64,000 nucleotides of DNA, taken from positions 372,001-436,000 of the forward strand of contig NGFI01000014.1 in the NCBI GenBank assembly GCA_002215645.1. The letters run 5' to 3'. The DNA is from Gemmatimonadetes bacterium 2013_60CM_65_52 (GTDB taxonomy: Bacteria > Gemmatimonadota > Gemmatimonadetes > Gemmatimonadales > Gemmatimonadaceae). Both the position numbers and the translations under genes were made by a program. The number at the start of each line of letters is the position of its first letter. The first letter of the stretch is position 1. The notes under the pieces were generated by a model. The model saw nothing but the letters and a program-made list of their open reading frames with translations. It was not told where the DNA came from and made no database searches. Below are positions 3-18,398 of this stretch, piece after piece.

Positions 3-1469
3 ACGGGTGATTTGTCCCAGAGCGTGATGCCGCACAATCATCGGCACGTGCTGGCGGACTGGCATCGGGCGTCGCCCGAGATCGTCCAGCAGGCAATTGC
101 CGCGGCAAAACACGCGAGTGTGGAGTGGGCGAACTGGTCGTGGGAAGACCGTGCGGCGGTCTTTCTTCGTGCGGCGGAGCTCCTGACCACCACGTGGCGA
201 CAGACCGTGAACGCGGCCACCATGCTGGGCCAATCGAAGACGGTGTTTCAGGCGGAGATCGACGCGGCCTGCGAGCTGATCGATTTCTGGCGCTTCAATC
301 CCGCCTACGCACAGCAGTTGTACGACGAGCAGCCGCTGAGCACGAACGCGATGTGGAATCAGTTGGACTATCGTCCGCTGGAAGGATTCGTGTATGCGGT
401 GACGCCGTTCAACTTCACGTCCATCGCCGGCAATCTCCCCACGGCGCCGGCGCTCATGGGCAATACGGTCGTCTGGAAGCCCGCCGGCTCGGCGATGCTG
501 TCGGCGTACTACATCATGCGTCTGCTCGAAGCGGCGGGTCTTCCGCCGGGGGTGATCAACCTGGTGCCGGGCGACGCGGCGGCGATCTCGAACGTGGCAC
601 TCACGCATCGCGACCTGGCCGGCGTGCACTTCACGGGAAGTACGGGCGTGTTCAATACGATGTGGCAGACGATCGGGGCGGACATGTCGCGCTACGCGAC
701 CTATCCGCGCATCGTCGGTGAAACGGGCGGCAAGGATTTCATTCTCGCCCATCCGTCGGCCGATCCGCAGGCACTCGCGGTTGCCATCGCGCGGGGCGGA
801 TTCGAGTACCAGGGCCAGAAGTGCTCCGCGGCAAGCCGCGTCTATGTGCCGCGGTCCCTCTGGCACGACGTCCGGGACCGGGTGGTCGGCATCATCGACG
901 AGCTTGGTGTCGGCGACGTGACGGATTTCCGCAACTTCATGGGCGCCGTCATCGACGAGCGCGCGTTCGGGAAGATCTCCGAGTACGTGAGCGATGCAAA
1001 GCGTAACGCGAAAGTCATCGCGGGCGGCAAGGTGGACGGCAAGGACGGATACTTCATCCATCCGACGCTCGTCGAAACCGCCGATCCCGGATATCGCCTG
1101 TTGTGCGAGGAGATCTTCGGTCCGGTGGTGACCGTGCACGTGTATGACGATGCACGGTGGGACGAGACGCTGCGCGTCGTGGACACCACGTCGCCGTATG
1201 CGCTGACGGGAGCGGTGTTCGCCAACGACCGCCGTGCGGTGCGCGAGGCAATGTTCGGGCTGCGAAACGTGGCCGGAAATTTTTATGTGAATGACAAGCC
1301 CACCGGCGCGGTGGTAGGCCAGCAGCCGTTCGGCGGGGCACGCGGCTCGGGCACCAACGACAAGGCGGGCTCGAAGCTGAACCTCGTGCGCTGGGTGAGC
1401 GCGCGCAGCATCAAGGAGACGTTCTCTCCGCCACTCGACCATCGCTATCCGTTCATGGCGGAGAAGTAG
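3..1469 (+). CDS. L-glutamate gamma-semialdehyde (1-pyrroline-5-carboxylate) dehydrogenase, 5' end outside window
   Basis: NAD-dependent aldehyde dehydrogenase that oxidises glutamate semialdehyde to glutamate, the second step of proline catabolism. The reading frame is open to the window edge. Numbering from the TTG at 12, the general-base Glu is residue 237 (GETGGKDF) and the catalytic Cys is residue 271 (QGQKCSA). The PHNHRHVLA, NAATMLGQSKT and TPFNFTSIAGNLP blocks are those of the P5CDH (RocA/PutA C-terminal) family rather than generic aldehyde dehydrogenases. The family is usually about 540 residues with roughly 55 ahead of the first motif seen here, so the true start lies upstream and the TTG at 12 is not it. 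No proline dehydrogenase is visible, but it could be just outside. Downstream comes a convergent gene. Confidence 0.93.
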   Translation, partial: TGDLSQSVMPHNHRHVLADWHRASPEIVQQAIAAAKHASVEWANWSWEDRAAVFLRAAELLTTTWRQTVNAATMLGQSKTVFQAEIDAACELIDFWRFNPAYAQQLYDEQPLSTNAMWNQLDYRPLEGFVYAVTPFNFTSIAGNLPTAPALMGNTVVWKPAGSAMLSAYYIMRLLEAAGLPPGVINLVPGDAAAISNVALTHRDLAGVHFTGSTGVFNTMWQTIGADMSRYATYPRIVGETGGKDFILAHPSADPQALAVAIARGGFEYQGQKCSAASRVYVPRSLWHDVRDRVVGIIDELGVGDVTDFRNFMGAVIDERAFGKISEYVSDAKRNAKVIAGGKVDGKDGYFIHPTLVETADPGYRLLCEEIFGPVVTVHVYDDARWDETLRVVDTTSPYALTGAVFANDRRAVREAMFGLRNVAGNFYVNDKPTGAVVGQQPFGGARGSGTNDKAGSKLNLVRWVSARSIKETFSPPLDHRYPFMAEK

Positions 1470-1472
1470 CGC

Positions 1473-2906
1473 TCACTTCGTCCAGAGAAAGAGGGCTCCG
1501 CAAGGGCCAGCTCGATACTTCGCTGGCACGGTACCGGCTGAGTAGAGCTCCGCGCCATGCAGGGCCTCGGGTGGCAACGCATTGAGGTCCCCCGGCTGTA
1601 CCTTGATGCCGTTGATGAACACGTCTACCGCGCACGCGGCTCCGCCCGGCCTCATGCTCGCTGGCGAGCCTAGTGTCGACATGCCGCGAGTCGAGACGAG
1701 AAGGGCCTCGGCGCCGAAGCCGGACACTCTCACCAGAGGAGCGAGCCGGAACAGGTCCGCCGTCTCGAACGGTCGACGACGCGCGATTTCGTCTTCGGTG
1801 AAGTAACGCCCCATGCCACTTCGGGAGCGCTCATCGAACTCGCGATTGCCGGCGGCATTGGGACTGTTCACGCGCTTCGCGATGACGCGCAGCGAGTCCA
1901 GGACTACGGCCGCACGTTCGAGCTTGACGGTGATCGGCGCGGTCTGGTTGTCGAGGTCAACTCGCAATCGGCGCGGGTAATACCCGAGCGCAAGGACCTC
2001 GAAGCCTTGAGTCCCCCCAGGAAGCCCGGCGAGGCGAAACGCGCCGTCCGGGCCTGACGCCGTGCCGTGCGAGGTGCCTAACAGGTGGATCTGCGCCGAG
2101 GCAACGAATTGGCCGCCGGTGGACTCCACGCGTCCCGTCAGCACGAATCTGCCAAGCACTGCCGCGGTGTCGGTCGTCGCGAGGGCCGGCGTGCCAACTG
2201 CGGGTGCGGGTGGTTCGGCCTGTGTGTCGAGCGTGATATCGCGCACGAGCAACCCTGCCTCGCCAATCTGCTCCTCGATGACGCCCGAGTGCTCGGCGCC
2301 TCCCGTCTGTGCCTGGAGGAGGAGTGATCGCGCGATGGGCAGTCCGCAGGCGCGATACACGCCGCTGGAGTCGGCCGTTACGGTCGCGGTGACCTCACGT
2401 GGACGTACTGCCAGCGTCGTGCGATCCAGGTCGAAGTCGCTCCACGTGAAGACGACCGAAGCGCCCGGAACCGTGCTGCCGGCGCGACGGATCGTTCCGA
2501 GCATGACGCCGACCGACGTATCTCGGACGGCGGCCGGACAGAACACACGCCGGAGCGTGGCGGCCGACGGAATGGCGAGGACGACGCGGGACTCGCCTTG
2601 CACGTCGATTTCAAGCGGCGGCGCGCCGATGCCCGTGGAGTCGATCCACGGGTGCTCCACGCTCAGCACGTAGCGCCCCTGGTGCAGGCCACCGAGCACG
2701 AACCGTCCCTGCGCGTCGGACGACGTGCTATGAAAGAGCGTGTCTGCGAGCCTGGCGGCCGGCGTCGCAATGACGGTCGCGCCGGCGAGCGGCCGCCCGT
2801 GGACGCTGTCGACGACCGTGCCCCTGATGCTTGGCGGTTCCGACTGCGCAAGCGCGATGACGGGAAACGCGGCGAGGACGGCAGAGCTGGCTAAGAGACG
2901 TCGCAT
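1473..2906 (-). CDS. Secreted carboxypeptidase-regulatory-like / TonB-plug domain protein without barrel
   Basis: 477 residues with a clear Sec signal peptide (MRRLLASSAVLAAFPVIALAQ). A first carboxypeptidase regulatory-like beta-sandwich follows at about residues 26-110 (RGTVVDSVHGRPLAGATV) and a second at about 253-330 (LTGRVESTGGQFVASAQIHLLG...GPDGAFRLAGLPGG). A TonB-receptor plug-like segment spans roughly 370-475 (FETADLFRLAPLVRV, CAVDVFINGIKV, LPPEALHGAELYSAG). The protein stops after the plug, so the 22-strand barrel of a real receptor is absent. Short proteins of this design recur in Gemmatimonadota. The role is unknown; periplasmic or outer-membrane association is inferred. It ends 3 bp from the convergent P5C dehydrogenase gene. 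Confidence 0.8.
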   Translation of the reverse strand: MRRLLASSAVLAAFPVIALAQSEPPSIRGTVVDSVHGRPLAGATVIATPAARLADTLFHSTSSDAQGRFVLGGLHQGRYVLSVEHPWIDSTGIGAPPLEIDVQGESRVVLAIPSAATLRRVFCPAAVRDTSVGVMLGTIRRAGSTVPGASVVFTWSDFDLDRTTLAVRPREVTATVTADSSGVYRACGLPIARSLLLQAQTGGAEHSGVIEEQIGEAGLLVRDITLDTQAEPPAPAVGTPALATTDTAAVLGRFVLTGRVESTGGQFVASAQIHLLGTSHGTASGPDGAFRLAGLPGGTQGFEVLALGYYPRRLRVDLDNQTAPITVKLERAAVVLDSLRVIAKRVNSPNAAGNREFDERSRSGMGRYFTEDEIARRRPFETADLFRLAPLVRVSGFGAEALLVSTRGMSTLGSPASMRPGGAACAVDVFINGIKVQPGDLNALPPEALHGAELYSAGTVPAKYRAGPCGALFLWTK

Positions 2907-2995
2907 GTGAGCGGAAAAGAGAGGTCGCGTATGTTCGCTCGCGTGCGAAGCGGCGGCCAGTGCCGCCAGGATACGAAGGTGCCCATCTTTAGCGC

Positions 2996-3910
2996 ATGGC
3001 CAGATACCGCTATTACACCGCCGACGTCTTTACGGACACGCCCTTCGGAGGCAATCAGCTCGCCGTCTTTCCGGACGCACGCAACATCCCCGAGAGGCGC
3101 CTGCAGGATGTGGCGCGCGAGTTCAACTTCTCGGAGACGACGTTCGTCTATCCTGCCGAAACACAGGAGGGAACGCGCCGAGTGCGCATTTTTACGCCCG
3201 GAGCGGAACTGCCATTCGCCGGCCATCCCACGATCGGCACCGCGCACGTCCTTGCGGCCATCGGTGAGCTCGTCTCGAGCACCAGCGAGCTTCGCATCGT
3301 GCTGGATGAGCCGGTAGGACCGGTTCCGGTCACCATCACGCTACGCGAGGGACGGCCGGTGTTTGCACAGCTCTCCGTAGCGAAGCTTCCCGAGCTTGGT
3401 CCACCTGCGCCGGGCCGCGAGGCGCTGGCGCACGTCCTCGGGCTCGAGCTCGACGACTTCCTCCCCGATCCCTGGATACCGCAGGGATACTCGTGCGGCC
3501 TGCCCTTTCTGTTCGTGCCGGTGCGCAACCGCGCCGCAGTGGCGCGTGCACAATTGCGTCTCGACGCCTGGGAGAGGACACTCAAGGGCACCTGGGCCTC
3601 GGAGATCCATCTCTTTGCGCGCGACGCCGAGCGTCCGGGCTCCGACCTTCGCGCCCGGGTATTCGTGCCGGGGCTGAGCGTGCCGGAGGATCCAGCAACG
3701 GGTAGCGCCAATGCGGCGCTTGCAGGCTACCTGGCGGCGCGAGACACGCGGCGCGACGGCACGTTGCGCTGGCGCGTGGAGCAGGGATTCGAGATGGGAC
3801 GGCCCAGCATTCTCGATGTCGAGGCGGACCTCCGCGACGGAATGGTGACGGCCGTGCGGGTGGGCGGCAGCTCGGTGCTTGTGTGCGACGGCACGATGGA
3901 GATCGCCTGA
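2996..3910 (+). CDS. PhzF family isomerase/epimerase
   Basis: 304 residues matching the PhzF fold throughout: N-terminal YYTADVFTDTPFGGNQLAVF, the catalytic Glu in FNFSETTF (Glu47, equivalent to Glu45 of PhzF), the HPTIGTAHVL motif, and the C-terminal DPATGSANAALAGYL motif that lines the active site. Family members catalyse acid-base isomerisations such as the DHHA isomerisation in phenazine synthesis. No phenazine genes are nearby, so the substrate here is unknown. The ATG at 2996 agrees with the conserved N-terminus. The 89 bp upstream separate it from a divergent gene and contain a small GC hairpin (2952-2967). Confidence 0.9.
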   Translation: MARYRYYTADVFTDTPFGGNQLAVFPDARNIPERRLQDVAREFNFSETTFVYPAETQEGTRRVRIFTPGAELPFAGHPTIGTAHVLAAIGELVSSTSELRIVLDEPVGPVPVTITLREGRPVFAQLSVAKLPELGPPAPGREALAHVLGLELDDFLPDPWIPQGYSCGLPFLFVPVRNRAAVARAQLRLDAWERTLKGTWASEIHLFARDAERPGSDLRARVFVPGLSVPEDPATGSANAALAGYLAARDTRRDGTLRWRVEQGFEMGRPSILDVEADLRDGMVTAVRVGGSSVLVCDGTMEIA

Positions 3911-3913
3911 GCC

Positions 3914-4195
3914 CTACGCCTGGCCTTCAGCGGCGCGCCGACGCGCGAGATGAAGGGCTCCCGTGACCGCAACGATGCATCCCACGACGATTCCTCCAAC
4001 GCCCGCATAAGCGAGAAAGCGAGCCCGATCCGCGGCGGCGAGAGCGGACTCTGTGCGCGGCCCGGGATGGCGGAAGGACAGCCGTCCTATCTCGGAGAGG
4101 CGCGCCTGGGCGACGAGACACGTGATCGCGCCGGCGAGGATGCAGAGCAGCGCGGTGAGGTCCACCAGACGGGCACGGCGAGATACGACGGGCAT
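3914..4195 (-). CDS. Small two-TM membrane protein
   Basis: 93 residues with two hydrophobic segments (about residues 11-30, LTALLCILAGAITCLVAQA, and 60-82, LAYAGVGGIVVGCIVAVTGAL) linked by a polar loop and ending in an Arg-rich cytoplasmic tail. It resembles no family I can name. It sits 3 bp from the end of the convergent phzF-like gene and is divergent from serA, whose start lies 95 bp away. The role is unknown. Codon bias is like its neighbours, and the ATG at 4195 is the only start that keeps both membrane segments. Confidence 0.6.
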   Translation of the reverse strand: MPVVSRRARLVDLTALLCILAGAITCLVAQARLSEIGRLSFRHPGPRTESALAAADRARFLAYAGVGGIVVGCIVAVTGALHLARRRAAEGQA

Positions 4196-4290
4196 GGCTC
4201 CGAATATGGCGCGCCACGCGAACGGCGCCCATGGGTTGCCCGGCGCACGCTGCCCGGCGAGCTTGCGGATATCCCCCGAACAAGACTTCC

Positions 4291-5898
4291 GTGCCCTGCC
4301 GTATCCTCGTCACCGATGACATCGACGCCGAGGGCGTCGCCCTGCTCACTGCCGAGCCGTCCTTTACCGTGGACGAGGTTCCGACGCTCCCGCCGGACGA
4401 GCTGCTGGAGCGTATCGACAGGTACGACGCCATCCTGGGGCGCAGCGCGACGCGCATCACGGCAGAGCTGCTTCGGCGCGCCACACGATTGCGCGTGGTG
4501 GGACGTGCCGGCGTGGGCGTCGACAACATCGCGCTCGACGCGGCCACCGCGCTCGGCGTGGCGGTCATCAACGCGCCGGCCGGCAACACCGTGGCCGTCG
4601 CCGAGCTTTTCTTCGGATCGCTCATCGGTCTGATCCGTCACTTGCCCCGTGCGGCGACCTCCATGCGCGACGGCCGCTGGGAGCGCGCCCAGTTCCTCGG
4701 CACGGAGATCAAGGGGAAGGCGCTCGTCATCGTCGGCGTGGGGCGCATCGGCGGCGAGGTTGCGACGCGTGCGCTCGCATTCGGCATGGACGTCGCGGGC
4801 TACGACCCCTACGTCGGCGACGACCGATTTCGCGCGTTGCGCATTCAGCGTCTCGCGACGCTCGAGGACGCGTTGGACATGGCGGACGTGCTCACCGTGC
4901 ACACGCCTCTTTCCGAGGAGACGGCGGGCATGATCGGGCGGCGCGAGCTCGCGCGCCTGCGCAGCGGCGCGATCGTGATCAACATGGCGCGCGGCGGCAT
5001 CATCGAAGAGTCGGCGCTCGCGCAAGCGCTGGAGACGGGCCAGCTTCGGGGCGCCATCGTTGACGCCTTCGTCAAGGAGCCGCTCGCGGCGGATCATCCG
5101 CTGCGGAAAGCAAAGAACGTTCTGCTGACGCCGCATGTCGGTGCATCCACGGCGGAGGCACAGCGCAACGTGGCGGTGGATGCGTGCGCCGCCGTGCGCG
5201 ATGCACTGCTGCACGACGAGCTCTCGCGCTCCATCAACGTCGCCGGTGCCGGCATCGGCGACTGGCGCGCACTGCAACCCGCTCTGCAAGTGACGCGGCG
5301 CGCGGCACGCGTCGCAAGCGCAATCCTCGCCGATCGTGGCGTGCGCGCCGCACAACGTCTCTCGCTTCGCTGTGGATCGGAGCTCGCGGGCTCCGGCGCG
5401 GCATTGCTTGCCGCCGCCGCGGCAGGCGTGCTCGAAGGCGCCGTGGACGTCGAGCGGATCAATCTCATCAACGCGCGATCGATTGCCGAGACGCGTGGCG
5501 TCGAGCTGTCCTCGTCGGAGTCGTCGTCCCTTGGGCCGTTCGGCATTCAGATCAGCCTGAGCGGCGGCATGCAGGAGATTGCGGTCGGATGCGTCGCGCC
5601 CGACGGCGCTCCCGGGCGGCTGACGCGAATCGGCGGCTTTCACGTGGACGTCGCGCCACGCGACACACTCATCATCCTCACGAACAACGACGTTCCCGGC
5701 GTCATCGGCCGCGTCGGCACGGTGCTTGGCGACGCCGGCGTGAACATCGCCGAGTATCATCAGGCCCGCCTGGCGCAGGGTGGCGAGGCGTTGGCGGCGA
5801 TCAGCGTGGACGGCGTCCCGCGCGCCGAAGTCCGCGACGCGCTGTTGCAGCTCGGCGACGTCCGTTCGGCAACGGTCGTCCATTTCCGCGGCGTGTGA
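4291..5898 (+). CDS. serA: D-3-phosphoglycerate dehydrogenase
   Basis: First enzyme of the phosphorylated serine pathway, oxidising 3-phosphoglycerate to 3-phosphohydroxypyruvate. At 535 residues it is the long form. It has a substrate-binding domain, a Rossmann domain (IVGVGRIGGEVA; VGRAGVGVDNI; NMARGGIIEE with the active-site Arg; LLTPHVGAST with the catalytic His), an intervening ASB domain (about 315-440), and a C-terminal ACT domain (TLIILTNNDVPGVIGRVGTVLGDAGVNI) that in homologues binds serine for feedback control. I choose the GTG at 4291 because upstream residues are not conserved; a longer reading from 4231 is possible. Its TGA overlaps the GTG of the next gene (GTGA), so translation is probably coupled through the whole serine operon. 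Confidence 0.95.
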   Translation: MPCRILVTDDIDAEGVALLTAEPSFTVDEVPTLPPDELLERIDRYDAILGRSATRITAELLRRATRLRVVGRAGVGVDNIALDAATALGVAVINAPAGNTVAVAELFFGSLIGLIRHLPRAATSMRDGRWERAQFLGTEIKGKALVIVGVGRIGGEVATRALAFGMDVAGYDPYVGDDRFRALRIQRLATLEDALDMADVLTVHTPLSEETAGMIGRRELARLRSGAIVINMARGGIIEESALAQALETGQLRGAIVDAFVKEPLAADHPLRKAKNVLLTPHVGASTAEAQRNVAVDACAAVRDALLHDELSRSINVAGAGIGDWRALQPALQVTRRAARVASAILADRGVRAAQRLSLRCGSELAGSGAALLAAAAAGVLEGAVDVERINLINARSIAETRGVELSSSESSSLGPFGIQISLSGGMQEIAVGCVAPDGAPGRLTRIGGFHVDVAPRDTLIILTNNDVPGVIGRVGTVLGDAGVNIAEYHQARLAQGGEALAAISVDGVPRAEVRDALLQLGDVRSATVVHFRGV

Positions 5899-7274
5899 CG
5901 GCGGCATCAGCACCCGTGGTCTCGCGCGACGAGGACGTGCGCCGGACCTACGCGACGGACGTCTCCGGGCTCGAGCTCGTGCCCGAGGGTGTGGCGCGGC
6001 CGGCCGACGCGGTCGAGGTAGCCGCGCTGCTCGCGGAAGCGAACGCATCGCGTACTCCGGTGACGCCCGCTGGTGGGCAGACGAGTACGACCGGAGCATC
6101 CATCACGGACCGCGGAATCCTCATGTCGCTGCGCGCGATGCAGCGCGTCATCGACATCGATGTAGACGCACGCAGCGTGCGCGTCGAGCCAGGCGTGCTG
6201 CTGGGCGAGCTCAAGCGAACGTGTGCGCAGCACGATCTGCTGCTCGCTCCCGATCCCACGAGCGAGGAGGAATGCACGGTTGGCGGCGCCATCGCGTGCA
6301 ACGCTTCCGGTGCGCGATCACTTCGATACGGCCCGACACGCAACCACGTTCGTGCACTGACCGTGGCGCTGGCCGACGGGTCGTTGGTGGAGCTTCGGCG
6401 GCCATCGCTCGAGAAGAACACGGTCGGTTACGCCTTCGCACAGGACGCCGTGGACTGGTTCATCGGCAGCGAAGGCACGCTCGGCGTGGTGGTGGAGGCC
6501 GAATTGGCGTTGCTGCCGATGCCGGAGCACGTGATCGGGCTCGCGATTCCGTTCGTGCGCGAAAAGGAAGCGTTCGCGTTTGTCGTCGCGGCACGGGAGA
6601 GCACGGCGGTCCACCCACGATGCCTCGAGTTCTTCGATGCGCTCGCGCTCTCGATCGCGCGCGATACCGGCGACACGTCGTGGGCACTGGGCGCGGAGGC
6701 GTTTGTGTACATCGAGGAGGCGCCCATCCGCGGTGTCGATCCCGCTCTGGACGAGTGGCTTGCTCTTGCCGATCGGTTCGGGGCCATAACGGATGACATG
6801 CGCGTGTACGATGGCGAAGCAAGCCTGCGCGAGGCGCGCCGAGTGCGACACGCGATTCCCGCGCATATGAATGAGCGGGGCGCCGCGCGTCGCGTGCATG
6901 GTGGGCGAAAGGTCTCGACGGACTGGGCGGTGCCGTATCGCGAGCTTGGACGAGCCATTCGCCGCGCGCGCGCCCTTGCCAGCGAAGCCGGCATCGCGCA
7001 GGCCGTCATCTACGGACACGCCGGCAATGGACACCCGCATCAGAACTTCATCGCCGACGACGCGGCGCAACTGTCGCGCATCGAACGTGTCGTCGAAGCG
7101 ACGCTGCGCGAGGTGATCGCGCTTGGCGGCACCGTGGCGGCCGAGCACGGCATCGGCAAGATCAAGCGGAAGTGGCTGCCATTACAGATGACACCCCTCC
7201 AGCTCCGCGTCATGCGCGCCGTGAAGCAGGAGCTCGATCCCGCGGGGATCCTGTCGCCCGGAAACGTCCTGTGA
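5895..7274 (+). CDS. FAD-linked 2-hydroxyacid dehydrogenase/oxidase (GlcD/D-LDH/D-2-HGDH type)
   Basis: 459 residues of the vanillyl-alcohol-oxidase-type FAD family. The N-terminal PCMH FAD-binding domain is clear (PVTPAGGQTSTTGASI; GGAIACNASGARSLRYGPTRNHV; FIGSEGTLGVV). So is the FAD_oxidase_C cap (GHAGNGHPHQNF; GGTVAAEHGIGKIK; ELDPAGILSPGNVL). Known members oxidise D-lactate, glycolate or D-2-hydroxyglutarate and pass electrons to quinone, cytochrome or ETF. The GTG at 5895 lies in a GTGA overlap with serA, and the gene ends in a GTGA overlap with serB. Its place inside a serine operon suggests D-2-hydroxyglutarate, a side product of SerA, as substrate; this is inference. The usual GHxGDGNLH motif reads GHAGNGHPH here. 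A longer frame from 5184 is a shadow inside serA. Confidence 0.88.
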   Translation: MTAASAPVVSRDEDVRRTYATDVSGLELVPEGVARPADAVEVAALLAEANASRTPVTPAGGQTSTTGASITDRGILMSLRAMQRVIDIDVDARSVRVEPGVLLGELKRTCAQHDLLLAPDPTSEEECTVGGAIACNASGARSLRYGPTRNHVRALTVALADGSLVELRRPSLEKNTVGYAFAQDAVDWFIGSEGTLGVVVEAELALLPMPEHVIGLAIPFVREKEAFAFVVAARESTAVHPRCLEFFDALALSIARDTGDTSWALGAEAFVYIEEAPIRGVDPALDEWLALADRFGAITDDMRVYDGEASLREARRVRHAIPAHMNERGAARRVHGGRKVSTDWAVPYRELGRAIRRARALASEAGIAQAVIYGHAGNGHPHQNFIADDAAQLSRIERVVEATLREVIALGGTVAAEHGIGKIKRKWLPLQMTPLQLRVMRAVKQELDPAGILSPGNVL

Positions 7275-7921
7275 GCGAGGATGGATTTGCCAGCATCATT
7301 CTCGACGTCGATTCCACCCTGTGTGGCGTGGAGGGAATCGACTGGCTCGCCGCGGCGCGCGGCGCGGACGTGAGCGAACGCGTCGAGGAGCTGACGCGCC
7401 GCGCCATGGCCGGTGAAGTCGCATTGGACTCGGTGTATGGAGAGCGGCTCGCGCTCGTAGCGCCCTCGTGGGAGTCGGTTGCCGCGCTCGCCGACGTGTA
7501 CGTGGCCGCTCTGGCGCCGGGTGCCGGAGAGACAGTCCGGGAGATCATGGCGAGCGGGCGCAGCGTGGTGCTCGTCAGCGGCGGCATCCTCGAGGCGATC
7601 CGGCCGGTGGCGGTGCAGCTCGGCATTCCACAGCGGCACGTACATGCCGTATCGCTGCGCTTCGACACAAAGGGCAACTATCGCGGTTACGACACCACGT
7701 CGCCGCTCGCGACGTCCACGGGTAAACGCGTGGTCGCTGAGACACTGCATTTGCGGCGGCGCGTGCTGGCAGTCGGCGACGGCGTGACCGACCTCGCGAT
7801 GCGCCCCGCCGTGGATTCCTTCGCCGCCTACACCGGATTCATTCGACGCGCATCGGTTGCGGATGTGGCCGACGTCGAGATCGAGGACTACCGACAACTG
7901 GGGGAGCTCGTGCTGACATGA
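7271..7921 (+). CDS. serB: HAD-family phosphoserine phosphatase-like protein
   Basis: 216 residues. HAD motif I is FASIILDVDSTLC with the nucleophile Asp and the DxDST signature of phosphoserine phosphatases. It is followed by GIDWLAAARGA, motif II VLVSGGILEAIRPVA, and motif III/IV around LAVGDGVTDLAMRPAV. The reaction is phosphoserine to serine plus phosphate. It starts with GTG at 7271 in a GTGA overlap with the FAD-linked gene and ends in an ATGA overlap with the aminotransferase, so the context strongly supports serine synthesis. It is slightly shorter than E. coli SerB because it lacks the N-terminal ACT-like domain, which is common outside Proteobacteria. Confidence 0.88.
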   Translation: MSEDGFASIILDVDSTLCGVEGIDWLAAARGADVSERVEELTRRAMAGEVALDSVYGERLALVAPSWESVAALADVYVAALAPGAGETVREIMASGRSVVLVSGGILEAIRPVAVQLGIPQRHVHAVSLRFDTKGNYRGYDTTSPLATSTGKRVVAETLHLRRRVLAVGDGVTDLAMRPAVDSFAAYTGFIRRASVADVADVEIEDYRQLGELVLT

Positions 7922-9024
7922 CCGGCCTGCTGACGAACGGAACGTTCTTCTTTCCCGGACCCACGGAAGTGCGCCCCGAGGTGCTGCGGGCGATGACGCT
8001 GCCGATGATTCCGCATCGCGGACCGCAGTTCGAGTCCGTGTTCGCGCGGCTTACGGCGTCGCTGCAGCTCGTCTTCGCCACTTCGCGTCCGGTGTACGTG
8101 TGCAGCTCGTCCGCCACAGGGTTGATGGAAGGGGCCATTCGCTGCGCGCCCGCCGGCCGCGTCCTCTCCCTCGTCAACGGCGCGTTCTCGGCGCGCTTTG
8201 CCGCGGCTGCGCGCGCGTGCGAGCGCGACATGGACGTGCTCGAAGTGCCGTGGGGCGAAGCCGTGGATCCCGATGTCGTGCGCTCGAAGCTGGCGTCGAC
8301 GCAGTATGCGGCGGTGACGGTGGTGCACTCGGAGACATCAACGGGCGCGCTCACCGACATCCGCGCCGTGACGGCGGCCGCGCACGAGCACGGCGCCGTG
8401 TGTTTGGTGGATTCGGTCACCGGGATCGGCGCGGCCGAGCTTCTCTTCGACGCATGGGGACTCGATTTCGTGCTCACGGGCTCGCAGAAAGCGCTCGCCC
8501 TGCCGCCAGGCTTGGCATTCGCCGTTGCGTCCGCAGAATTCGTCCAAGGGGCGCGTGCGCAGCGCGACCGCGGGCTGTACTTCGATGTCGTGGAGTTCGA
8601 CGCGTACGCGGCGAAGAATCAAACGCCCAACACGCCCGCGATTCCCCTTTTCTTCGCCGCGGACCTCCAGCTTGCGGCGATCGTCGCCGAGACCGTACAG
8701 GTGCGGTGGGCGCGTCACGCGGCGATGGCACAGCGCACGTACGAGTGGGTGGACGCACTACGGTCGCGTCACGGCGACGCACTGCACGTCCTCGCCCCTG
8801 AAGGGCGTCGCACACCCAGCGTCACAACCATCACGCTGCCTACCTCGCTCACGGCGGGGAAAGTCCTGCGTGCCGTTTCAGAGCGCGGCTACACCATCGG
8901 GAGCGGCTACGGCAAGAACAAGGAGACGACCGTCCGCATCGGGCACATGGGCGATCATACCATGGAGGGGCTCGAGCGCTGTCTCGCGGCCTGCGACGCG
9001 GCCTTCGATGCGCTGATCGTCTAG
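7918..9024 (+). CDS. Class V aminotransferase (phosphoserine or serine-glyoxylate type)
   Basis: 368 residues, fold-type I PLP enzyme of class V. Key segments are FFFPGPTEVRPEVLRAM, HSETSTGALTDIRAV, CLVDSVTGIGAAELLFDAWGLDFVLTG and the Schiff-base Lys in GSQKALALPPG. The family includes alanine/serine-glyoxylate aminotransferases and some phosphoserine aminotransferases of non-canonical type. Being the last gene of a serA/serB operon, it most likely supplies the missing transamination of 3-phosphohydroxypyruvate with glutamate. This role is inferred, since its motifs are closer to the SGAT/AGAT branch than to E. coli SerC. It starts at ATG 7918 in an ATGA overlap. Its last codons overlap the convergent diguanylate cyclase gene by 4 bp. 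Confidence 0.85.
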   Translation: MTGLLTNGTFFFPGPTEVRPEVLRAMTLPMIPHRGPQFESVFARLTASLQLVFATSRPVYVCSSSATGLMEGAIRCAPAGRVLSLVNGAFSARFAAAARACERDMDVLEVPWGEAVDPDVVRSKLASTQYAAVTVVHSETSTGALTDIRAVTAAAHEHGAVCLVDSVTGIGAAELLFDAWGLDFVLTGSQKALALPPGLAFAVASAEFVQGARAQRDRGLYFDVVEFDAYAAKNQTPNTPAIPLFFAADLQLAAIVAETVQVRWARHAAMAQRTYEWVDALRSRHGDALHVLAPEGRRTPSVTTITLPTSLTAGKVLRAVSERGYTIGSGYGKNKETTVRIGHMGDHTMEGLERCLAACDAAFDALIV

Positions 9025-10352
9025 CGCTTGGAGGCTGGGCTTCGCAGGTCGGACTGAATGACGGCGTGCTCGCCGGAGTATTCGGTCTCCTCGCTCCAGG
9101 CGCGAACGCAGTCGCGATTGGCGTGCTTGGCGGCGTACAGCGCGCTGTCGGCGCGGGACCACAACACCGCGGCGAAGTTCGGCTCGCCGCGCGGCGCGCC
9201 GACCGCCACACCCACGCTGGCGGTGAGCTTGACGGGCGCATTCTGCGGACCGATGGTGAACTGGTGTGCGCGGATCCGCTCGCAGAGGCGGGCCGCAAAG
9301 AGATGCGCGCCTGCCGCGCCCGTATCGGGTAGGAGAAGAGCGAATTCCTCGCCACCCACGCGTGCGACGATGTCACCACCGCGCCCGGAGGCCAGGAGCA
9401 TGGCTCCGACTTCGCGGAGCACGGCGTCGCCCGCGGGATGTCCGTAGGTGTCGTTGACCAACTTGAAGTGATCGAGATCGAGTGCGACGAGGCCGAATTC
9501 GCCGCTCGCCCGCGTGGCGCGCGCCGCCTCACGCACGAGCGACTGGTCGAAGCCACGGCGATTGAGGCACCCCGTGAGTGGATCGGTGAGCACCATGCTC
9601 GAGAGCTGGTCCCGCACTCTGTTATACGCCATGCCCACGCGCGTGACGGTGTCGGGTGGCCTGTCCGCGGCCACGTCGTAGCTCGGCGTGAAGTCGCCGT
9701 CCTCGGCGCTCTGGAAGAGGCTCACGACGGTGCGAAGCCGGCGGCGCACGCCCGTGGCTTGCATGATCATGAGAGACACGCCCGCCGCACAGAGCGCAAG
9801 CGTCCAGAATTCCTCCAGGACGTCGACGCGCGCGTGCCGGCTCATGGCAAGGTAGATGAGCCCCAGATAGCCCAGCACACCGAGCTGGAGGACGCGCCAG
9901 GCATGACGTGCGCCGAAGAAGAAATTCGCCACGTGAACGATGACTGCCATGCCGAGGAGCGCTCGCTCGTAATGCGTGGCGGTGGTCGTCGCGGCCGTCA
10001 TGGCAAACACGAACGCGAGATCGGCGGTGAGGACCGTCATGACGAGCTCCGAGCTCGCCTCGGTACGCCGCCACAGCGGTGCGTGCAAGAGCACGATCGC
10101 AAGCACGTAGGCCGATACGATCGTGGCCACGTCGCCGAGGGCGTTCGTTGCCACTGTGCTGCCGCTCGACTTGATCAGAACGAAAAGCTGAACGACGCCG
10201 ACGATGATGGCAGCCACCGCTCGCGATGGCGCTTGGAGGCGTAGCACAGCGCCCGCGGCAAGATCGCGCTGTACGTCCCGGGAGTCGCCAAGTGGCGCAG
10301 CGCGCCGGGACAAATTGACCGTGTGGGCATCCACTGGGAATCGACCGTTCAT
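9021..10352 (-). CDS. Membrane-bound diguanylate cyclase (GGDEF)
   Basis: 443 residues. About six hydrophobic segments occupy residues 45-200, then a HAMP-like helical linker (about 203-252), then a GGDEF domain (253-425). The active-site loop is GGEEF (333-337), an active form, and an inhibitory I-site RGGD (324-327) sits exactly five residues upstream, so product feedback is expected. DLDHFKLVNDTYGHPAGD is the standard nucleotide/metal-binding segment. The enzyme makes cyclic di-GMP from two GTP. The signal sensed by the membrane domain is not evident. The gene stands alone, with an inverted repeat over an AT-rich tract about 46-75 bp upstream of its start. Confidence 0.93.
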   Translation of the reverse strand: MNGRFPVDAHTVNLSRRAAPLGDSRDVQRDLAAGAVLRLQAPSRAVAAIIVGVVQLFVLIKSSGSTVATNALGDVATIVSAYVLAIVLLHAPLWRRTEASSELVMTVLTADLAFVFAMTAATTTATHYERALLGMAVIVHVANFFFGARHAWRVLQLGVLGYLGLIYLAMSRHARVDVLEEFWTLALCAAGVSLMIMQATGVRRRLRTVVSLFQSAEDGDFTPSYDVAADRPPDTVTRVGMAYNRVRDQLSSMVLTDPLTGCLNRRGFDQSLVREAARATRASGEFGLVALDLDHFKLVNDTYGHPAGDAVLREVGAMLLASGRGGDIVARVGGEEFALLLPDTGAAGAHLFAARLCERIRAHQFTIGPQNAPVKLTASVGVAVGAPRGEPNFAAVLWSRADSALYAAKHANRDCVRAWSEETEYSGEHAVIQSDLRSPASKR

Positions 10353-13685: not shown

Positions 13686-14771
13686 TCAAACGAGCGGCAT
13701 GACCTCCTCCGCGAAGCGCTCCATCTCCTCGAGCTGCGGACTGCACTGCAGCAGAAGCAGCCCGACGCCGGCCTCCTGGAATTGGCGAATCCGCTCCGCC
13801 ACCTGTTCCGGCGTCCCTACGAGGCCAGCGCGCAGCCCGCGGTTGGAGACCGAGTAGTCTTCCAGCGACACGCGCTGCTCGAGCTGCGTATTGGCGAGCC
13901 AGTCCTGATAGTTGTGGTAGCCTGGCGAGCCCTCGGCCACGTTGGTGATGCGGGCGAGCTCGCGGCGGGCCTCCTGCTCCGTGCGACGTACGATGACGTA
14001 CGCCGCGACGCCGAATTCCATGGCCGTTCCCCCGGCCGCTGCGCGACGCTGCCGCATGTCGTCGATCTTCGGCACGATGCGCTCGACCGGATCGCCGTGC
14101 ATGACGTAGGCGTCACATTTGGACGCGATGAGATTCTTCGCCGTCTCGGATTCACCGCCCGCGTAAATGGTTGGCGCGGGGCGACGCACGGGTTTCGGCT
14201 CGACGATCAGTTCGTCCACGGTGTAGTAGTTGCCACGATGCGTCAGCCGCGCTTCGCGCCACGCGCCACTGACGACGTCGAGCCACTCCGCGGTGCGGGC
14301 GTAGCGGTCGTCATGCCGGTCGAAGTGGACACCATAGCGCCGCGCCTCGTCGGCCCACCACGCGCTGACGACGTTCAGCGCAAGGCGGCCGTTGGAGATG
14401 TGATCGATGTTGGCGGCCTGTTTGGCGAGTTGCGCGGGAGGATGATACTGCGGCCGCACGGCAACCATGAGCTCGAGTCGCTCTGTGACGGCGGCAAGGG
14501 CGGCGGCCGTGCTCCATGCGTCGAGTGCCGGCGCGTCCTCACCCTTGATGTCGTTCAGGAACAGCTCGGCGATGAGCGTGAGATCGAAACCGATCTGCTC
14601 GCTGCGCTGCGCGAGGCGCTTGGTGTAGTTCCAGCTCGCCTCCATTCGCTCGTCCTCGACGTTGCGAAGCCAACCGCCAAAGACGGGAAGCCAGTATCCG
14701 AAGCGAATGCGGGTGGGTGGCGATGCGCCAACGTCGGCCAGCGCCCGTTCGGGCGCGAGGATCGTGCTCAC
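13686..14771 (-). CDS. LLM-class flavin-dependent monooxygenase (SsuD/SfnG-like)
   Basis: 361 residues, TIM-barrel bacterial-luciferase-like enzyme. Segments FGYWLPVFGGWL, AQRSEQIGFDLTLIAE, LELMVAVRPQYHPPAQLAKQ, DHISNGRLALNVVSAWW, HDDRYARTAEWLDVVSGAW and PAPTIYAGGESETAKNLIA match the FMNH2-dependent alkanesulfonate/dimethylsulfone monooxygenase branch. Such enzymes cleave C-S bonds to release sulfite during sulfur starvation. The exact substrate is not known. It starts with GTG at 14771 in a GTGA overlap with the ATP-grasp gene, so the two are translated together. A partner flavin reductase is not visible nearby. The sulfur link is supported by the Met/Cys-rich leader upstream of the pair. 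Confidence 0.87.
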   Translation of the reverse strand: MSTILAPERALADVGASPPTRIRFGYWLPVFGGWLRNVEDERMEASWNYTKRLAQRSEQIGFDLTLIAELFLNDIKGEDAPALDAWSTAAALAAVTERLELMVAVRPQYHPPAQLAKQAANIDHISNGRLALNVVSAWWADEARRYGVHFDRHDDRYARTAEWLDVVSGAWREARLTHRGNYYTVDELIVEPKPVRRPAPTIYAGGESETAKNLIASKCDAYVMHGDPVERIVPKIDDMRQRRAAAGGTAMEFGVAAYVIVRRTEQEARRELARITNVAEGSPGYHNYQDWLANTQLEQRVSLEDYSVSNRGLRAGLVGTPEQVAERIRQFQEAGVGLLLLQCSPQLEEMERFAEEVMPLV

Positions 14772-15736
14772 GCGCCCACTCCCGCCGGCGCACCGGCGCG
14801 CAGCTCGATATAGTCGCCGAAATTCACCCAGGGATCGAAGCCGACGACGTTGGGCGCGTCGGCGACGAAGTTGGAGAGCGCGTTGATGTCGTAGAAGTAG
14901 TGCTTGCCGTCGCGGTCGTCGACGAGGAGCTCGATGCCACCGATGTCGAGCTGCGTGAAGCGGGCGATGCGCTCCACCTGTTCGATGATCTCGGCGGAGG
15001 GAAATCCCGCTTCCACGCGGAGTCCGGTCTTGGGCGCATCCACGGCGCACGCGCCGCGCACGAGCTCTACTCCGTTCGTGGTCTGGCACGCATCCGCCGG
15101 GCAGAGATCGAACGAACCGGTGGCGGGGAAGACATTGATCGCGTAGAGATAGCGCCCGCCAATGGTTTCGACGCGCGTGATGTGTCCGTCGCGGAGGGGC
15201 GCGGCTTCCTGCACCAGCGCGACACCATCCACGCCGAGCGAGACTTCACCGCGCCCGACGGCTCCTTCCAGCGCCGCTGCCGTTTCGTACTTCGTGATGC
15301 CCGCTCCGCTACCGCCCACGTTCGCCTTCACGAGCACCGGATAGCGGAGATCCTCCGCGGCGGCGACGGCCTGCGACGGATCGTTGATCACCACGGCGCG
15401 CGGGAACGGAAGGCCGAGCTGAGCAAGCGCGTCCAGTTGGCTCGCCTTCGAGAGCTCGTACCCGTACGTGGTGCTGCCATTGATGACGGGCACACCGATC
15501 CGCTCGAGATGATGGAGCCAGTGCAGCGTATGGAACGTGGACTGTCCGTGTCCGCGCAGATACGCCGAGGGGCTCGCGCGATTGATGACGAGGGAGTACG
15601 GGGACGTTCGTTCCGACGGATCGAAGCGGTGCGCGGCGGCATCGAGCCGCACGTACTCCAAACCCCGGCGATCCAGCTCGGCAAACAGCGGCCGGAACCA
15701 GTCGGGGTGTTCGTGGTAAATCGCAATTGGCAGCAT
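14768..15736 (-). CDS. RimK/glutathione-synthetase-like ATP-grasp ligase
   Basis: 322 residues from the ATG at 15736; a GTG at 15775 is an alternative start. ATP-grasp features are visible: KASQLDALAQLGLPFPRAVV, the phosphate-binding strand YPVLVKANVGGSGAGITKY, VALVQEAAPLRDGHITRVE, and the metal site region DIGGIELLVDDRDGKHYFYDINALSNFV, with the Glu and Asn that bind Mg. Such ligases join a carboxylate to an amine or thiol using ATP. The substrate is unknown. It is coupled by GTGA to the LLM monooxygenase, and together they are the only genes between the leader/terminator region and a separate GT87 gene. I know of no named pathway with this exact pair. Confidence 0.82.
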   Translation of the reverse strand: MLPIAIYHEHPDWFRPLFAELDRRGLEYVRLDAAAHRFDPSERTSPYSLVINRASPSAYLRGHGQSTFHTLHWLHHLERIGVPVINGSTTYGYELSKASQLDALAQLGLPFPRAVVINDPSQAVAAAEDLRYPVLVKANVGGSGAGITKYETAAALEGAVGRGEVSLGVDGVALVQEAAPLRDGHITRVETIGGRYLYAINVFPATGSFDLCPADACQTTNGVELVRGACAVDAPKTGLRVEAGFPSAEIIEQVERIARFTQLDIGGIELLVDDRDGKHYFYDINALSNFVADAPNVVGFDPWVNFGDYIELRAGAPAGVGA

Positions 15737-15812
15737 GGCGTGTATCTGGGAATGGGGTCGGTCGCTTCTCGTCACGTATCCGCTGAGGCGGCGGTACGCT
15801 CCCGAAAATGGA

Positions 15813-15845
15813 AGCGCCCCGGTCCGCGTGGGGGACCGGGGCGCT
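15813..15845 (-). terminator. Strong hairpin, attenuator upstream of ATP-grasp/LLM pair
   Basis: A perfect 13-bp stem (AGCGCCCCGGTCC with GGACCGGGGCGCT) and a 7-base loop. On the minus strand it is followed by TTCCATTTTCGG, a short T-rich tail. It lies 22 nt after the stop of the short leader ORF and 77 nt before the ATP-grasp ATG. It could terminate transcripts of the upstream barrel gene (16014-18398). But a promoter and leader ORF lie between that gene and the hairpin, so attenuation of the pair downstream is the better reading. Confidence 0.75.
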
Positions 15846-15867
15846 CAGCGACGAAGGACGTCGTGAT

Positions 15868-15948
15868 CTACGTGTGCGCGCCGAGTCTCCCTTGCGGACG
15901 GTTCCGCATGAGACACGGGTACATGTGGGCACACACCGGCGTGGGCAT
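15868..15948 (-). CDS. Met/Cys-rich leader peptide (26 aa), probable attenuation uORF
   Basis: Short ORF whose ATG (15948-15946) coincides with the transcription start expected from the promoter at 15984-15956, so its mRNA would be leaderless. The peptide begins MPTPVCAHMYPCLM and ends RNRPQGRLGAHT. Met or Cys occupies residues 1, 6, 9, 12 and 14, that is five of the first 14, plus His8. The stop TAG is 22 nt before a 13-bp terminator hairpin. A short ORF rich in regulatory codons followed by a terminator is the classic attenuator layout, here expected to respond to Met/Cys supply. This fits the SsuD/SfnG-like enzyme downstream. A precursor peptide modified by the ATP-grasp ligase is an alternative. 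There is no homology evidence; the call rests on layout. Confidence 0.6.
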   Translation of the reverse strand: MPTPVCAHMYPCLMRNRPQGRLGAHT

Positions 15949-15955
15949 GAGATGC

Positions 15956-15984
15956 ATTTTCGGACGGTGGGACGGCATTGTCAA
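15956..15984 (-). promoter_or_regulatory. Sigma70-type promoter of the Met/Cys leader and ATP-grasp/LLM unit
   Basis: On the minus strand a perfect -35 TTGACA (15984-15979), a 17-bp spacer and a -10 GAAAAT (15961-15956, four of six to consensus). Seven bases separate the -10 from the A of the leader ATG at 15948, so transcription should start at or next to that A. The promoter lies within 35 bp of the end of the upstream gene at 16014. Confidence 0.65.
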
Positions 15985-16013: not shown

Positions 16014-18398
16014 TCAGAATCGCGCCTCGACGTAGGTATCGATCCGCCACATGCGCTCGGGATTGATGCCGCGCGCGACGTCGAAGCGGATGAGTCCGTC
16101 CATCACGGAGAACCCCGCGCCGACTCCGGACATCGGAAGTCCGATGCTCCGCCACGCCGTGCGATCGCCGGCCCAGCCGAAGTCCGAAAACAGCACCGGG
16201 CGAAGGAGCGCACTGCCGTGCGCCAACTCTGCACGCGCGAGCCAGAAGGCATTTCCCGTCTCCTTGCCGGGACGTTGGCCGCGGACGGTCTGCGTTCCGC
16301 CCAGGAACCAGAAGCGCTGCGCGGGCAGCGCACCCGCCGAGGTACCCGCCGCGAGGGTGAGCGCCGCGGCGCCATCGCCGATGCCATGTGAGGCGGTGAG
16401 ATCCGCTGCCGCGCGCGCGTAGCTGCCGGTGTCTCCTCGCGCCGCCTCGAGGCGTACGTCGCTCAACAAACGAAAGCCTTCCGGATCGAGCCCCATGCTT
16501 GCGAGATGTCGGGCGCGCGCGCCGACGTACACGCCTTTGTCCGCAGTCAAGTTGGGCTCGAAGCTGGAGCCCATGGTTACGCGAGCAAAGGAGAACGTCG
16601 TCTTCTGGACTGCTGTGCGCTGCTGCTCCGCGAAGAGCGACCAGAGGAAACCGCCGCCAGCGGCTCCATCGGGTACAGACGTCAGCTCCAGCCCCGAGGC
16701 GCGGTAGTAGAATCCTTCGTCGCGGCCAAAGAGCAGTGCAGAGATGGAGCTGCCGAGTGACAGCGGGTTGCCCCAGTCGCCGGCGGAGACGAGGCGATTG
16801 TACGCCCCAACGGAGAGCGTGCGCCTCAGATCGCTGCGCGACGCGAACAGCTCGACGGCCGGTTGCCAGTCCGCGATACCAATGCGACCTGTCGCGTGCA
16901 GCGAGTAACCCGCGCCCAGCTCCTGGTCGATCCTCGCTCCACCGGAAATGCCCTCCACCCGATTGTACCGAAAATTCTGGAGCTCGGCATGCGGCGGCAG
17001 CGGTGCAAAGTCGGCCTGAGCTCCCATGCTGAGCGCCTGTGTCACGAGCGCATCCATCTCGACCGCGCCGAAGGTCTCCTCGCCCTTGTCGTAGATGGAG
17101 GGCGGAAGATCGGGAGAATTCGCGAGGCGTGTGGAATCGCACGGAATGCGCGTGAGCACCGGATTCGGGTTGCCGCGAGACGTCCGTACGCGCGTTCGCA
17201 CGCCGATGCTGTCGCACTGCGCCTTGTTTCGCGCCCGACGGTCCTCTCGCACCGTTTCCTCATGCTCGCCCGAACCGACCGTCACCTCGACCGTGGTTCC
17301 GCCTTGCGTTCGTGCGCTGTCCTTCGCCACCTCGATCTTCGGAAGCGGCGCTCCTGAGTTCACGTGCTCGTACGTGTACTTCTGCTCCAGCTTCATCGGG
17401 ATGTGCATGAAGCCCGCGGTCGCGTTGCCCTCCATCACCTGGAGACGTGGAAGCCAGAAGCGCCCTTGATACAGACCGTACTCTACGCCGATCGCACTGA
17501 TCGACGCGGTCATGGGGAACATGAGCGGCTTCATGATCGTGGGAACGTCCTCGAACGACTTCGGGTCGTCTTCCTCGGCCACCGCCTTGATGTCCATCGG
17601 CACGCTCATGCGGTATGCGGCCCGCACGAGATGGCCGCCGTCGAGATCGAACCAGAGCGAGCCGACAGCGAGGTTCCATTTCGGTGCGCGCGGGCGCACC
17701 TGGAGCTCTCGCAGCCGAATCGCGTGTCCGTCGGGAAGCCGGAACGTCGCTGAATCACCGGTCTTGAACGTGTAGTACGCCTCGGATCCGGCTGCCAATG
17801 GATTCACGACGCCCTCATTCTCATCCACCGCTTCACGAGCGGCGCTCGAGCCGATCCACATGGTCTCGCTGCCGGGATAGTACGGAATCGGCGTGATGTC
17901 GCCGGTGAGATCGACATGTGCCGACTTCCCCGCGATCGGTATCGCCGTTCTGGAGCCCGTGACGTCGACGTATGCGCCCACGTCGCGACGCCATTGTACG
18001 CGCGTCGCGCTTTCCGTCCGGAACGCAAGGCGATCGCGTCCGAACCTCGTGAAGGCGAGTCCCACTGAAATGCGCTGGTACGTCGTGGCATCGTACGACG
18101 CGAGCGACGAATCCAGCCGCATGCGCGCCTGTCTCGCGAGCAACAGCAGGGGCCGGGCCGCGCTGTCCCGAAATGCCGTGGCAAGATGCTCGGCCGTGAC
18201 CGGCACTCGCTTGGGCTCGCGGTGCACGCGGATGGAGTCGCGACGGGCGCGCGCCAGTGCGCGCACCGAGTCACGCGTCAGTTGCTTTGCCGCCCGCGTC
18301 GAGTCGCGCCCCGATTGCTCGGCGGACGCCGCGGGCCGCGCCTGCTGCGTGGGTACTGGCGCGGCCTGCAGGACCACAACGATGACAGCAGCGAGCAT
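16014..18398 (-). CDS. Outer-membrane protein with Omp85-like C-terminal barrel
   Basis: 794 residues. The signal peptide is MLAAVIVVVLQAAPVPTQQA. An Arg/Asp/Ser-rich segment follows (about 25-60), then a mostly beta domain (about 100-370) with YQRISVGLAFTRFGRDRLAFRTE and a gap-like linker rich in charged residues. From about 450 comes a beta-barrel ending FWFLGGTQTVRGQRPG and a last strand RIDTYVEARF with terminal Phe. The LGGxxxVRG motif is the L6-loop signature of Omp85 barrels (BamA, TamA, FhaC). I see no clear POTRA domains, so this is not BamA itself. The N-terminal part may be related to DUF5686-type proteins. Function is unknown; insertion or surface display of a lipid or protein is possible. 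Confidence 0.7.
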   Translation of the reverse strand: MLAAVIVVVLQAAPVPTQQARPAASAEQSGRDSTRAAKQLTRDSVRALARARRDSIRVHREPKRVPVTAEHLATAFRDSAARPLLLLARQARMRLDSSLASYDATTYQRISVGLAFTRFGRDRLAFRTESATRVQWRRDVGAYVDVTGSRTAIPIAGKSAHVDLTGDITPIPYYPGSETMWIGSSAAREAVDENEGVVNPLAAGSEAYYTFKTGDSATFRLPDGHAIRLRELQVRPRAPKWNLAVGSLWFDLDGGHLVRAAYRMSVPMDIKAVAEEDDPKSFEDVPTIMKPLMFPMTASISAIGVEYGLYQGRFWLPRLQVMEGNATAGFMHIPMKLEQKYTYEHVNSGAPLPKIEVAKDSARTQGGTTVEVTVGSGEHEETVREDRRARNKAQCDSIGVRTRVRTSRGNPNPVLTRIPCDSTRLANSPDLPPSIYDKGEETFGAVEMDALVTQALSMGAQADFAPLPPHAELQNFRYNRVEGISGGARIDQELGAGYSLHATGRIGIADWQPAVELFASRSDLRRTLSVGAYNRLVSAGDWGNPLSLGSSISALLFGRDEGFYYRASGLELTSVPDGAAGGGFLWSLFAEQQRTAVQKTTFSFARVTMGSSFEPNLTADKGVYVGARARHLASMGLDPEGFRLLSDVRLEAARGDTGSYARAAADLTASHGIGDGAAALTLAAGTSAGALPAQRFWFLGGTQTVRGQRPGKETGNAFWLARAELAHGSALLRPVLFSDFGWAGDRTAWRSIGLPMSGVGAGFSVMDGLIRFDVARGINPERMWRIDTYVEARF

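Follow-up and report, generated by a model that had tools for sequence, protein, structure and literature searches.

A very likely Met- and Cys-sensing transcription attenuator ahead of an ATP-grasp/monooxygenase operon in Gemmatimonadota

The window analysed here is a stretch of 64,000 nt from Gemmatimonadetes bacterium 2013_60CM_65_52 (contig NGFI01000014.1, positions 372,001 to 436,000). On its minus strand, a short upstream open reading frame (uORF) with Met and Cys codons and a hairpin precede a gene pair encoding an ATP-grasp ligase and a bacterial-luciferase-like flavin monooxygenase (LLM). This raises the question of whether the uORF and the hairpin control the operon, and by which signal. 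The comparison described below indicates that the element is very likely a ribosome-mediated transcription attenuator that senses Met and Cys, although stalling, the effector, the start site and termination are inferred and no expression data support them. The following features were assigned; the promoter elements, the uORF with its sensor codons and the U-tract were read directly from the sequence.

15984-15979, minus strand: -35 element TTGACA; relatives share the TTG(A/C)C spacing
15961-15956, minus strand: -10 element GAAAAT, after a 17-nt spacer from the -35 element and 7 nt ahead of the ATG at 15948
15948-15868, minus strand: uORF MPTPVCAHMYPCLMRNRPQGRLGAHT, 26 codons followed by the TAG stop codon (15870-15868), which these coordinates include
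15933-15931, 15924-15922, 15915-15913 and 15909-15907, minus strand: uORF sensor codons Cys6, Met9, Cys12 and Met14, respectively
15914-15885, minus strand: extended protector (1:2) hairpin over Cys12-Leu13-Met14, with the core 15908-15903 paired with 15898-15893, from folding and covariation
15891-15876, minus strand: antiterminator 5' strand (region 2), within the uORF tail, ending a few nt short of the stop codon
15844-15830, minus strand: antiterminator 3' strand (region 3), common to the terminator 5' arm
15846-15812, minus strand: terminator hairpin with a 14-bp perfect or wobble stem (15846-15833 with 15825-15812) and a 7-nt loop (15832-15826)
15800-15811, minus strand: interrupted U-tract CCATTTTCGGGA after the terminal TT of the stem
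14768-15736, minus strand: ATP-grasp ligase gene (RimK/LysX-like), start ATG 15736 assigned by orthology, the frame being open from GTG 15775
13686-14771, minus strand: LLM gene, SsuD/SfnG/alkanesulfonate-monooxygenase-like, overlapping the ATP-grasp stop codon by 4 nt

The promoter spacing of the uORF is compatible with a leaderless start. It is inferred from this spacing that the transcript starts at or next to the ATG at 15948; no 5' end has been mapped. The uORF has few sensors compared with its relatives, namely two Met and two Cys codons beyond the initiator, and it lacks a run of Cys codons, both Cys being isolated, whereas CCCC runs occur in some relatives. The terminator stem begins 21 nt after the stop codon, the T-rich stretch past the hairpin is interrupted (TTCCATTTTC), and the ATP-grasp ATG at 15736 lies 75 nt past the hairpin. 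The antiterminator is a 13-bp interrupted helix in which GGG-GAC-CGG-GCGC (15891-15876) pairs with GCGC-CCGGTC-CCC (15844-15830), and the outer helix of the protector, GTCTC at 15914-15910 with GAGAC at 15889-15885, overlaps it. By itself the window antiterminator was not significant (z = -1.5 against shuffles); its significance derives from conservation across relatives and not from the window alone. An Rfam scan of the window gave no match, hence no SAM-II riboswitch (RF00521) at this locus, and thus no catalogued element accounts for it. A preliminary description of the locus, made from the sequence alone, had proposed the promoter, the 26-codon Met/Cys uORF and the terminator. These held, with coordinates right to within a base or two, and its hairpin numbers (13 bp, 22 nt from the stop codon and 77 nt to the gene) were adjusted to 14 bp, 21 nt and 75 nt. 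The antiterminator that it had seen, GGCGC with GCGCC, held in part, being only the visible part of the helix between 15891-15876 and 15844-15830, and the mechanism that it had called unproven now has a full set of protector, antiterminator and terminator.

Relatives were gathered with the ATP-grasp gene by a whole-genome search and from named genome contigs, the latter belonging to Gemmatimonadota MAGs, mostly Gemmatimonadaceae, plus outgroups. A short Met/Cys-rich uORF was found at 25 of the 61 Gemmatimonadota loci with the ATP-grasp/LLM pair. The layout upstream recurs: TTGAC, a -10 element, ATG or GTG, an ORF of 26-33 codons with abundant Met and Cys, a small hairpin, and a terminator of high GC content. 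The peptide sequences diverge strongly while their composition is constant (MTRSQSAPAMPMMSMCSMCQSTHGTGGAQQ, MIRQSANQLMCTMCMCTSMRLQPQGTGGAHY, MTRAQTMCCCCMCLMCQPTPEGLGVHDM, MTSAQTTCMCCCSCMCCLMCQPASEALGDRM, MNHVAHTARMCCCICCHAAHWAGGGKSART). In most of the 25 leaders, the Met/Cys content exceeded that of at least 95% of shuffles of their own upstream region; three (L008, L023, L058) failed this test, are weaker, and were counted by eye. The sensor classes were assigned partly by eye, and the data are comparative and computational, mostly from MAGs. Since relatives repeat the arrangement, the window leader is more than a chance occurrence. The preliminary description would have been refuted by the lack of a conserved short ORF or hairpin in relatives; both were found to be conserved at the same place. 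An automatic leader call at L048 was rejected as a spurious ORF adjoining a SAM-II. The same-genus locus L006 keeps a terminator-like hairpin with no Met/Cys uORF at the site, and it is possible that this is a decayed attenuator.

The promoter is conserved together with the leader. Leaving aside the tandems with SAM-II, nearly all leaders have TTG(A/C)C at 34-37 nt ahead of the start codon; this set comprises 22 tabulated leaders plus L022, which the tree described below scores as none. The exceptions are L060, which has a TTGCTT variant nearby, and L041, which shows none. This distance is expected if transcription begins at the start codon, which is an inference without a mapped 5' end in any of these leaders.

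Sixteen leaders were aligned (alignment A1), and three recurring helices were recognized, corresponding to protector, antiterminator and terminator; the terminator hairpin recurs at the corresponding position across the aligned leaders. Pairing between the uORF tail and the terminator 5' arm was found in 16/16 leaders, with a mean of -24.1 kcal/mol, whereas 300 shuffles of the tail gave a mean of -15.4 kcal/mol (SD 0.74), the best being -17.7. The tail strand stops 1-20 nt ahead of the stop codon in these leaders. In the core helix of the protector, 93.8% of cells were paired, and 12 double-changed cells were counted against 3.9 after shuffling (0/500). One column pair splits into CG in 8, GC in 6, and UA in 2 leaders. 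Thus, the comparison shows covariation in the protector hairpin that spans the last sensor codons, and the mutually exclusive pairing of the terminator arm is likewise shown. Support is not uniform: the antiterminator test was weak or failed in L019, L025 and L027 (z of +0.8 to +1.2), and some lineages (L006, L019, L023, L025, L027) have a weaker leader, protector or antiterminator, or lack one of them.

To follow the pairing as a function of ribosome position, the RNA was folded with the terminator 3' arm still unmade. The modelled upstream capture of region 3 was 0.84 with the ribosome on the last Met/Cys codon and 0.24 with the ribosome at the stop codon; the corresponding values for the window were 0.87 and 0.13. 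Two of the 16 modelled leaders discriminated only weakly between the stalled and finished states (L002, 0.82 vs 0.56; L007, 0.91 vs 0.60). At equilibrium the terminator is favoured, and the switch must therefore be kinetic, like known attenuators. A covariance model built from the 16 leaders (R1) recovered leaders of the same gene on which it had not been trained, in genomes G015 and G011 (E = 1.5e-13 and 4.6e-11, respectively). The search covered 60 genomes and returned the trained leaders plus related elements elsewhere; once E exceeded about 1e-3, most matches covered only a terminator fragment or fell in coding sequence (e.g. L132).

Sister lineages carry a different sensor at the same site. 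SAM-II, a riboswitch described from alpha-proteobacteria, takes the place of the uORF at 22 loci and stands in tandem with a leader at three (L015, L016, and, by eye, L058). By cmscan, L014 (38.7 bits) and L015 (43.0 bits) scored above the gathering score of 36, and L009, L012, L013, L016 and L018 scored 30.8-35.7 bits, below it; in L038, L040 and L043-L057 the motif was recognized by eye. A pattern test had missed L014 and L016, which were recovered by cmscan, and L056, recovered by eye. In a tree of the ATP-grasp protein with 62 rows, one of them a Bacteroidota outgroup, 22 rows carry the leader, 22 SAM-II, 3 both, and 15 neither. The leader label changes 6 times on this tree, and well-supported branches force at least 4 of these changes; for all four labels together, 11 changes were counted, indicating that the sensors were exchanged repeatedly. 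At other genes, leader peptides are known to have changed places with a riboswitch or a T-box (PMC2965389). That SAM-II accompanies the same genes is shown, and it ties the pair to sulfur amino acids. The link to sulfur in the preliminary description therefore held independently, since in sister lineages a SAM-II riboswitch governs the same pair. SAM-II was found in 46 of the 48 relative genomes of good quality, against 0 of 14 control genomes. A second, strong SAM-II (60.6 bits) adjoins the ATP-grasp gene at L013 (1013-1088, minus strand), on the opposite strand and for a divergent gene.

The order of ATP-grasp followed by LLM is retained almost throughout the relatives. Among named solved structures, the closest match to the LLM protein is alkanesulfonate monooxygenase (8vw6, 7e-112), followed by SfnG (8t0u, 5e-57). 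It scored 253.9 bits against TIGR04021 (SfnG), under the cutoff of 382.95, so that it is related to SfnG but not its equivalog, and 185.1 bits against TIGR03565 (SsuD), where the cutoff of 518.2 was likewise not met. Since both cutoffs are missed, the substrate is undetermined. It is likely that the two enzymes free sulfur from organosulfur compounds, the substrate being inferred. An FMN-reductase-like gene was read by eye directly upstream in some tree rows with neither sensor; an FMN reductase is the partner expected for the LLM enzyme class. Relatives of the ATP-grasp protein with 54-64% identity (L071-L110) occur in Planctomycetota, Bacteroidota, Armatimonadota and others.

A transcription attenuator is expected to have a short ORF enriched in sensor codons between promoter and operon, an intrinsic terminator before the first gene, and a mutually exclusive antiterminator that uses RNA covered by a ribosome at the stop codon. 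All three were present; the U-tract is imperfect in the window and strong in many relatives. In the proposed mechanism, transcription would begin at or beside the uORF ATG, and the leading ribosome would read the Met and Cys codons in the first half of the peptide. A shortage of charged elongator Met-tRNA or Cys-tRNA would stall the ribosome on these codons, leaving the tail (15891-15876) free to pair with 15844-15830. The terminator would be prevented, and RNA polymerase would continue into the ATP-grasp/LLM operon. When both Met and Cys are sufficient, the ribosome would reach the stop codon and cover the tail, and the hairpin at 15846-15812 would terminate transcription. Attenuation had already been the interpretation in the preliminary description. 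The comparison strongly supports it, and the start site, the stalling, the efficiency of termination and the response to Met and Cys are inferred only.

Four other explanations were considered. The first is translational attenuation as in the mycobacterial polycysteine ORFs, in which stalling on the uORF would control translation of the ATP-grasp gene rather than termination. In its favour, translation attenuation has been reported as the mode of action of the mycobacterial Cys uORFs (cited in PMC13236596), and the U-tract of the window is imperfect. Against it, 75 nt separate the hairpin from the gene start, and behind the hairpin comes T-rich sequence, which is strong in many relatives (e.g. 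TTTTTTTTG), and the antiterminator competes with the terminator arm and not with the Shine-Dalgarno region. Translational attenuation is thus considered unlikely.

The second is that the Met/Cys peptide acts as a metal-sensing (copper-sensing) arrest or chaperone peptide, like CutF/CruR. Although its CxxC-like and MxM motifs look like copper ligands, peptides of the CutF type need a Sec signal, CxxxC and a proline-rich C-terminus (PMC9973294), and neither a signal sequence nor a Pro-rich end was seen in the leaders. Furthermore, residue content tracks the target, being Met-only at metX, Cys-rich at sulfite reductase, and mixed at the ATP-grasp/LLM pair; SAM-II substitutes at the same site, and the targets are sulfur genes, not metal genes. 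This explanation was rejected as very improbable. The third is that the hairpin merely terminates the upstream gene (16014-18398), the uORF being incidental. That gene does end at 16014, about 170 nt ahead of the hairpin. However, the upstream sequence and genes vary among relatives while leader and hairpin remain linked to the ATP-grasp gene, the upstream gene and the hairpin have a promoter between them, and the covariation and the antiterminator are conserved, so that this view is largely refuted and hardly tenable. Finally, a graspetide-like RiPP, with the short ORF encoding a precursor modified by the ATP-grasp ligase, is suggested by the ATP-grasp gene downstream and by a weak match to the NCBIfam maturase GRASP_SAV_5884 (21.8 bits against a cutoff of 350), but was rejected and is practically ruled out, because the peptide is unconserved apart from its Met/Cys composition, SAM-II lineages retain the same ATP-grasp gene without any peptide ORF, and a terminator separates the peptide gene from the ligase gene.

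The transcription attenuator is probably one element of a wider attenuation network. Further leaders in the same genome were sought only via the model, a pattern and homologous genes. On contig C9 (G000:C9:314030-314299), a SAM-II (37.8 bits) comes first, then MPTRLSMRMSMRITTDFLQGMTDGRPRARA with a terminator, and behind them a homoserine dehydrogenase - metX-like operon, whose gene names were assigned from the sequence by eye. This hom-metX leader scored only E = 0.04 with R1 and was recognized by inspection alone. It is Met-rich, lies after the SAM-II, and corresponds to 1531-1810 of L152 (G000:C9:312500-316500). Its kin in relatives of the same genus and family are MTRMLRSARMLMPMMMTAFPLGETDGRARVYDA and, ahead of metX, MRTIMSMTMRMMRMMRMTMRMTMRMTMRMTTASLSRESHGGRRMRG; the antiterminator test was weak or failed for the hom-metX leader L150 as framed. 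A leader with about 15 internal Met codons was observed between SAM-II and metX at about 679-820 of L201 (G022:C26:309000-312000), and it appears likely to have expanded from ATGCGAATGACC repeats.

Cys-rich leaders were found at other sulfur genes. On contig C10 of the same genome, at about 23,283, an OsmC-like gene and a sulfite reductase have a Cys-rich MLSRAANGSTMLRNCAHQYCACACACMCACMQVSRGRPV with a strong terminator ahead of them, and the antiterminator of this leader gave z = -3.8. The leader occupies 732-960 of L184 (G000:C10:22552-26862). In a genome of the same genus (L195, G004:C57:60500-70500; 1260-9834), SAM-II and a Cys-rich leader stand before an apparently complete sulfate-assimilation operon, read by eye as CysN/C, CysD, CysC, CysH, sulfite reductase and CysK. 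Two more leaders were seen, one ahead of a rhodanese-type sulfurtransferase (L115), the other ahead of a further sulfite reductase (L112). These two real-looking leaders came from a search for the promoter plus Cys codons, which also returned the known L118; its remaining matches L111, L113, L114, L116, L117 and L119 were rejected as chance matches. With Met at hom-metX, Cys at sulfate and sulfite assimilation, and both at the present operon, codon content follows the operon. A bolder reading, which we consider likely, is that Gemmatimonadota have a sulfur-amino-acid regulon on RNA leaders with peptide codons matched to the operon: Met-only at hom-metX and metX (MRTIMSMTMRMMRMMRM..., about 15 internal Met), Cys-rich at sulfate and sulfite genes, and mixed at the monooxygenase pair. 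A leucine leader (MNAFALLLSLVLLLGLTLSRGVAARAEVRS) with a terminator before leuA (L131, G051:C40, 1535-1665) has the same design for another amino acid. Leader-peptide attenuation may possibly be general in Gemmatimonadota.

Several known systems resemble the attenuator in part. Mycobacterial leaderless Cys uORFs precede cysA2 and nirA (Shell 2015, PMC4633059), and Canestrari 2020 reportedly also deals with mycobacterial leaderless polycysteine short ORFs. The likeness lies in a leaderless short ORF with Cys codons ahead of sulfur-assimilation genes, and both mycobacterial kinds of target, thiosulfate sulfurtransferase and sulfite reductase, also have leaders of this sort in Gemmatimonadota (L115, L112, L184). 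In contrast, the window has mixed Met/Cys codons, an intrinsic terminator with an antiterminator, and an ATP-grasp/monooxygenase target, and belongs to another phylum. The mycobacterial parallel drawn in the preliminary description is adjusted by the terminator and antiterminator. Cys leaders were also predicted in Actinobacteria without a terminator (Seliverstov 2005, PMC1262725). The preliminary description knew of no Met plus Cys leader ahead of this gene pair in this group; the idea of a mixed leaderless peptide as such has a precedent in metL of Streptomyces lividans, a leaderless 29-aa peptide with Met and Cys, MSTTSDRTPATEATTTPGARCMCRRMCAF (..RCMCRRMCAF), before metNIQ (PMC8079986). It differs in that its authors saw no clear terminator and its target is a transporter, and comparative conservation, a SAM-II swap or a codon-matched network is not reported in the relevant sections (PMC8079986). 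The classical trp/his/leu attenuators have sensor codons, protector, antiterminator and terminator in identical order; the present type differs from them in sensing Met and Cys, in its likely leaderless start, and in its interchange or tandem with SAM-II. SAM-II, which sister lineages have at this very place ahead of the pair, responds to the end product of the same pathway, but it is absent from the window locus and binds SAM directly, whereas the leader would sense charged tRNA. Our search of the open-access literature, which is weak evidence, found no report of such leaders in Gemmatimonadota, no Met-only leader with a full attenuator, and no SAM-II/leader tandem. The attenuator class is thus already known, and its mixed Met/Cys form in Gemmatimonadota is probably new.

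If the bolder reading is true, Met-tRNA attenuation and SAM-II/leader tandems reading SAM and charged tRNA would be designs for which we found no worked example in the open-access literature. If the Met codons are truly read out, attenuation reaches the amino acid that also starts every protein, and a tandem of SAM-II and leader would give separate readings of SAM and of Met/Cys-tRNA on a single transcript. The natural series of SAM-II only, both, and leader only offers a model for the replacement of one RNA sensor by another. The hitherto unassigned ATP-grasp/monooxygenase pair is linked to sulfur-amino-acid supply, its leader most likely switching the genes on when sulfur amino acids run short, and a little-studied, mostly uncultured phylum gains a testable sulfur-starvation regulon.
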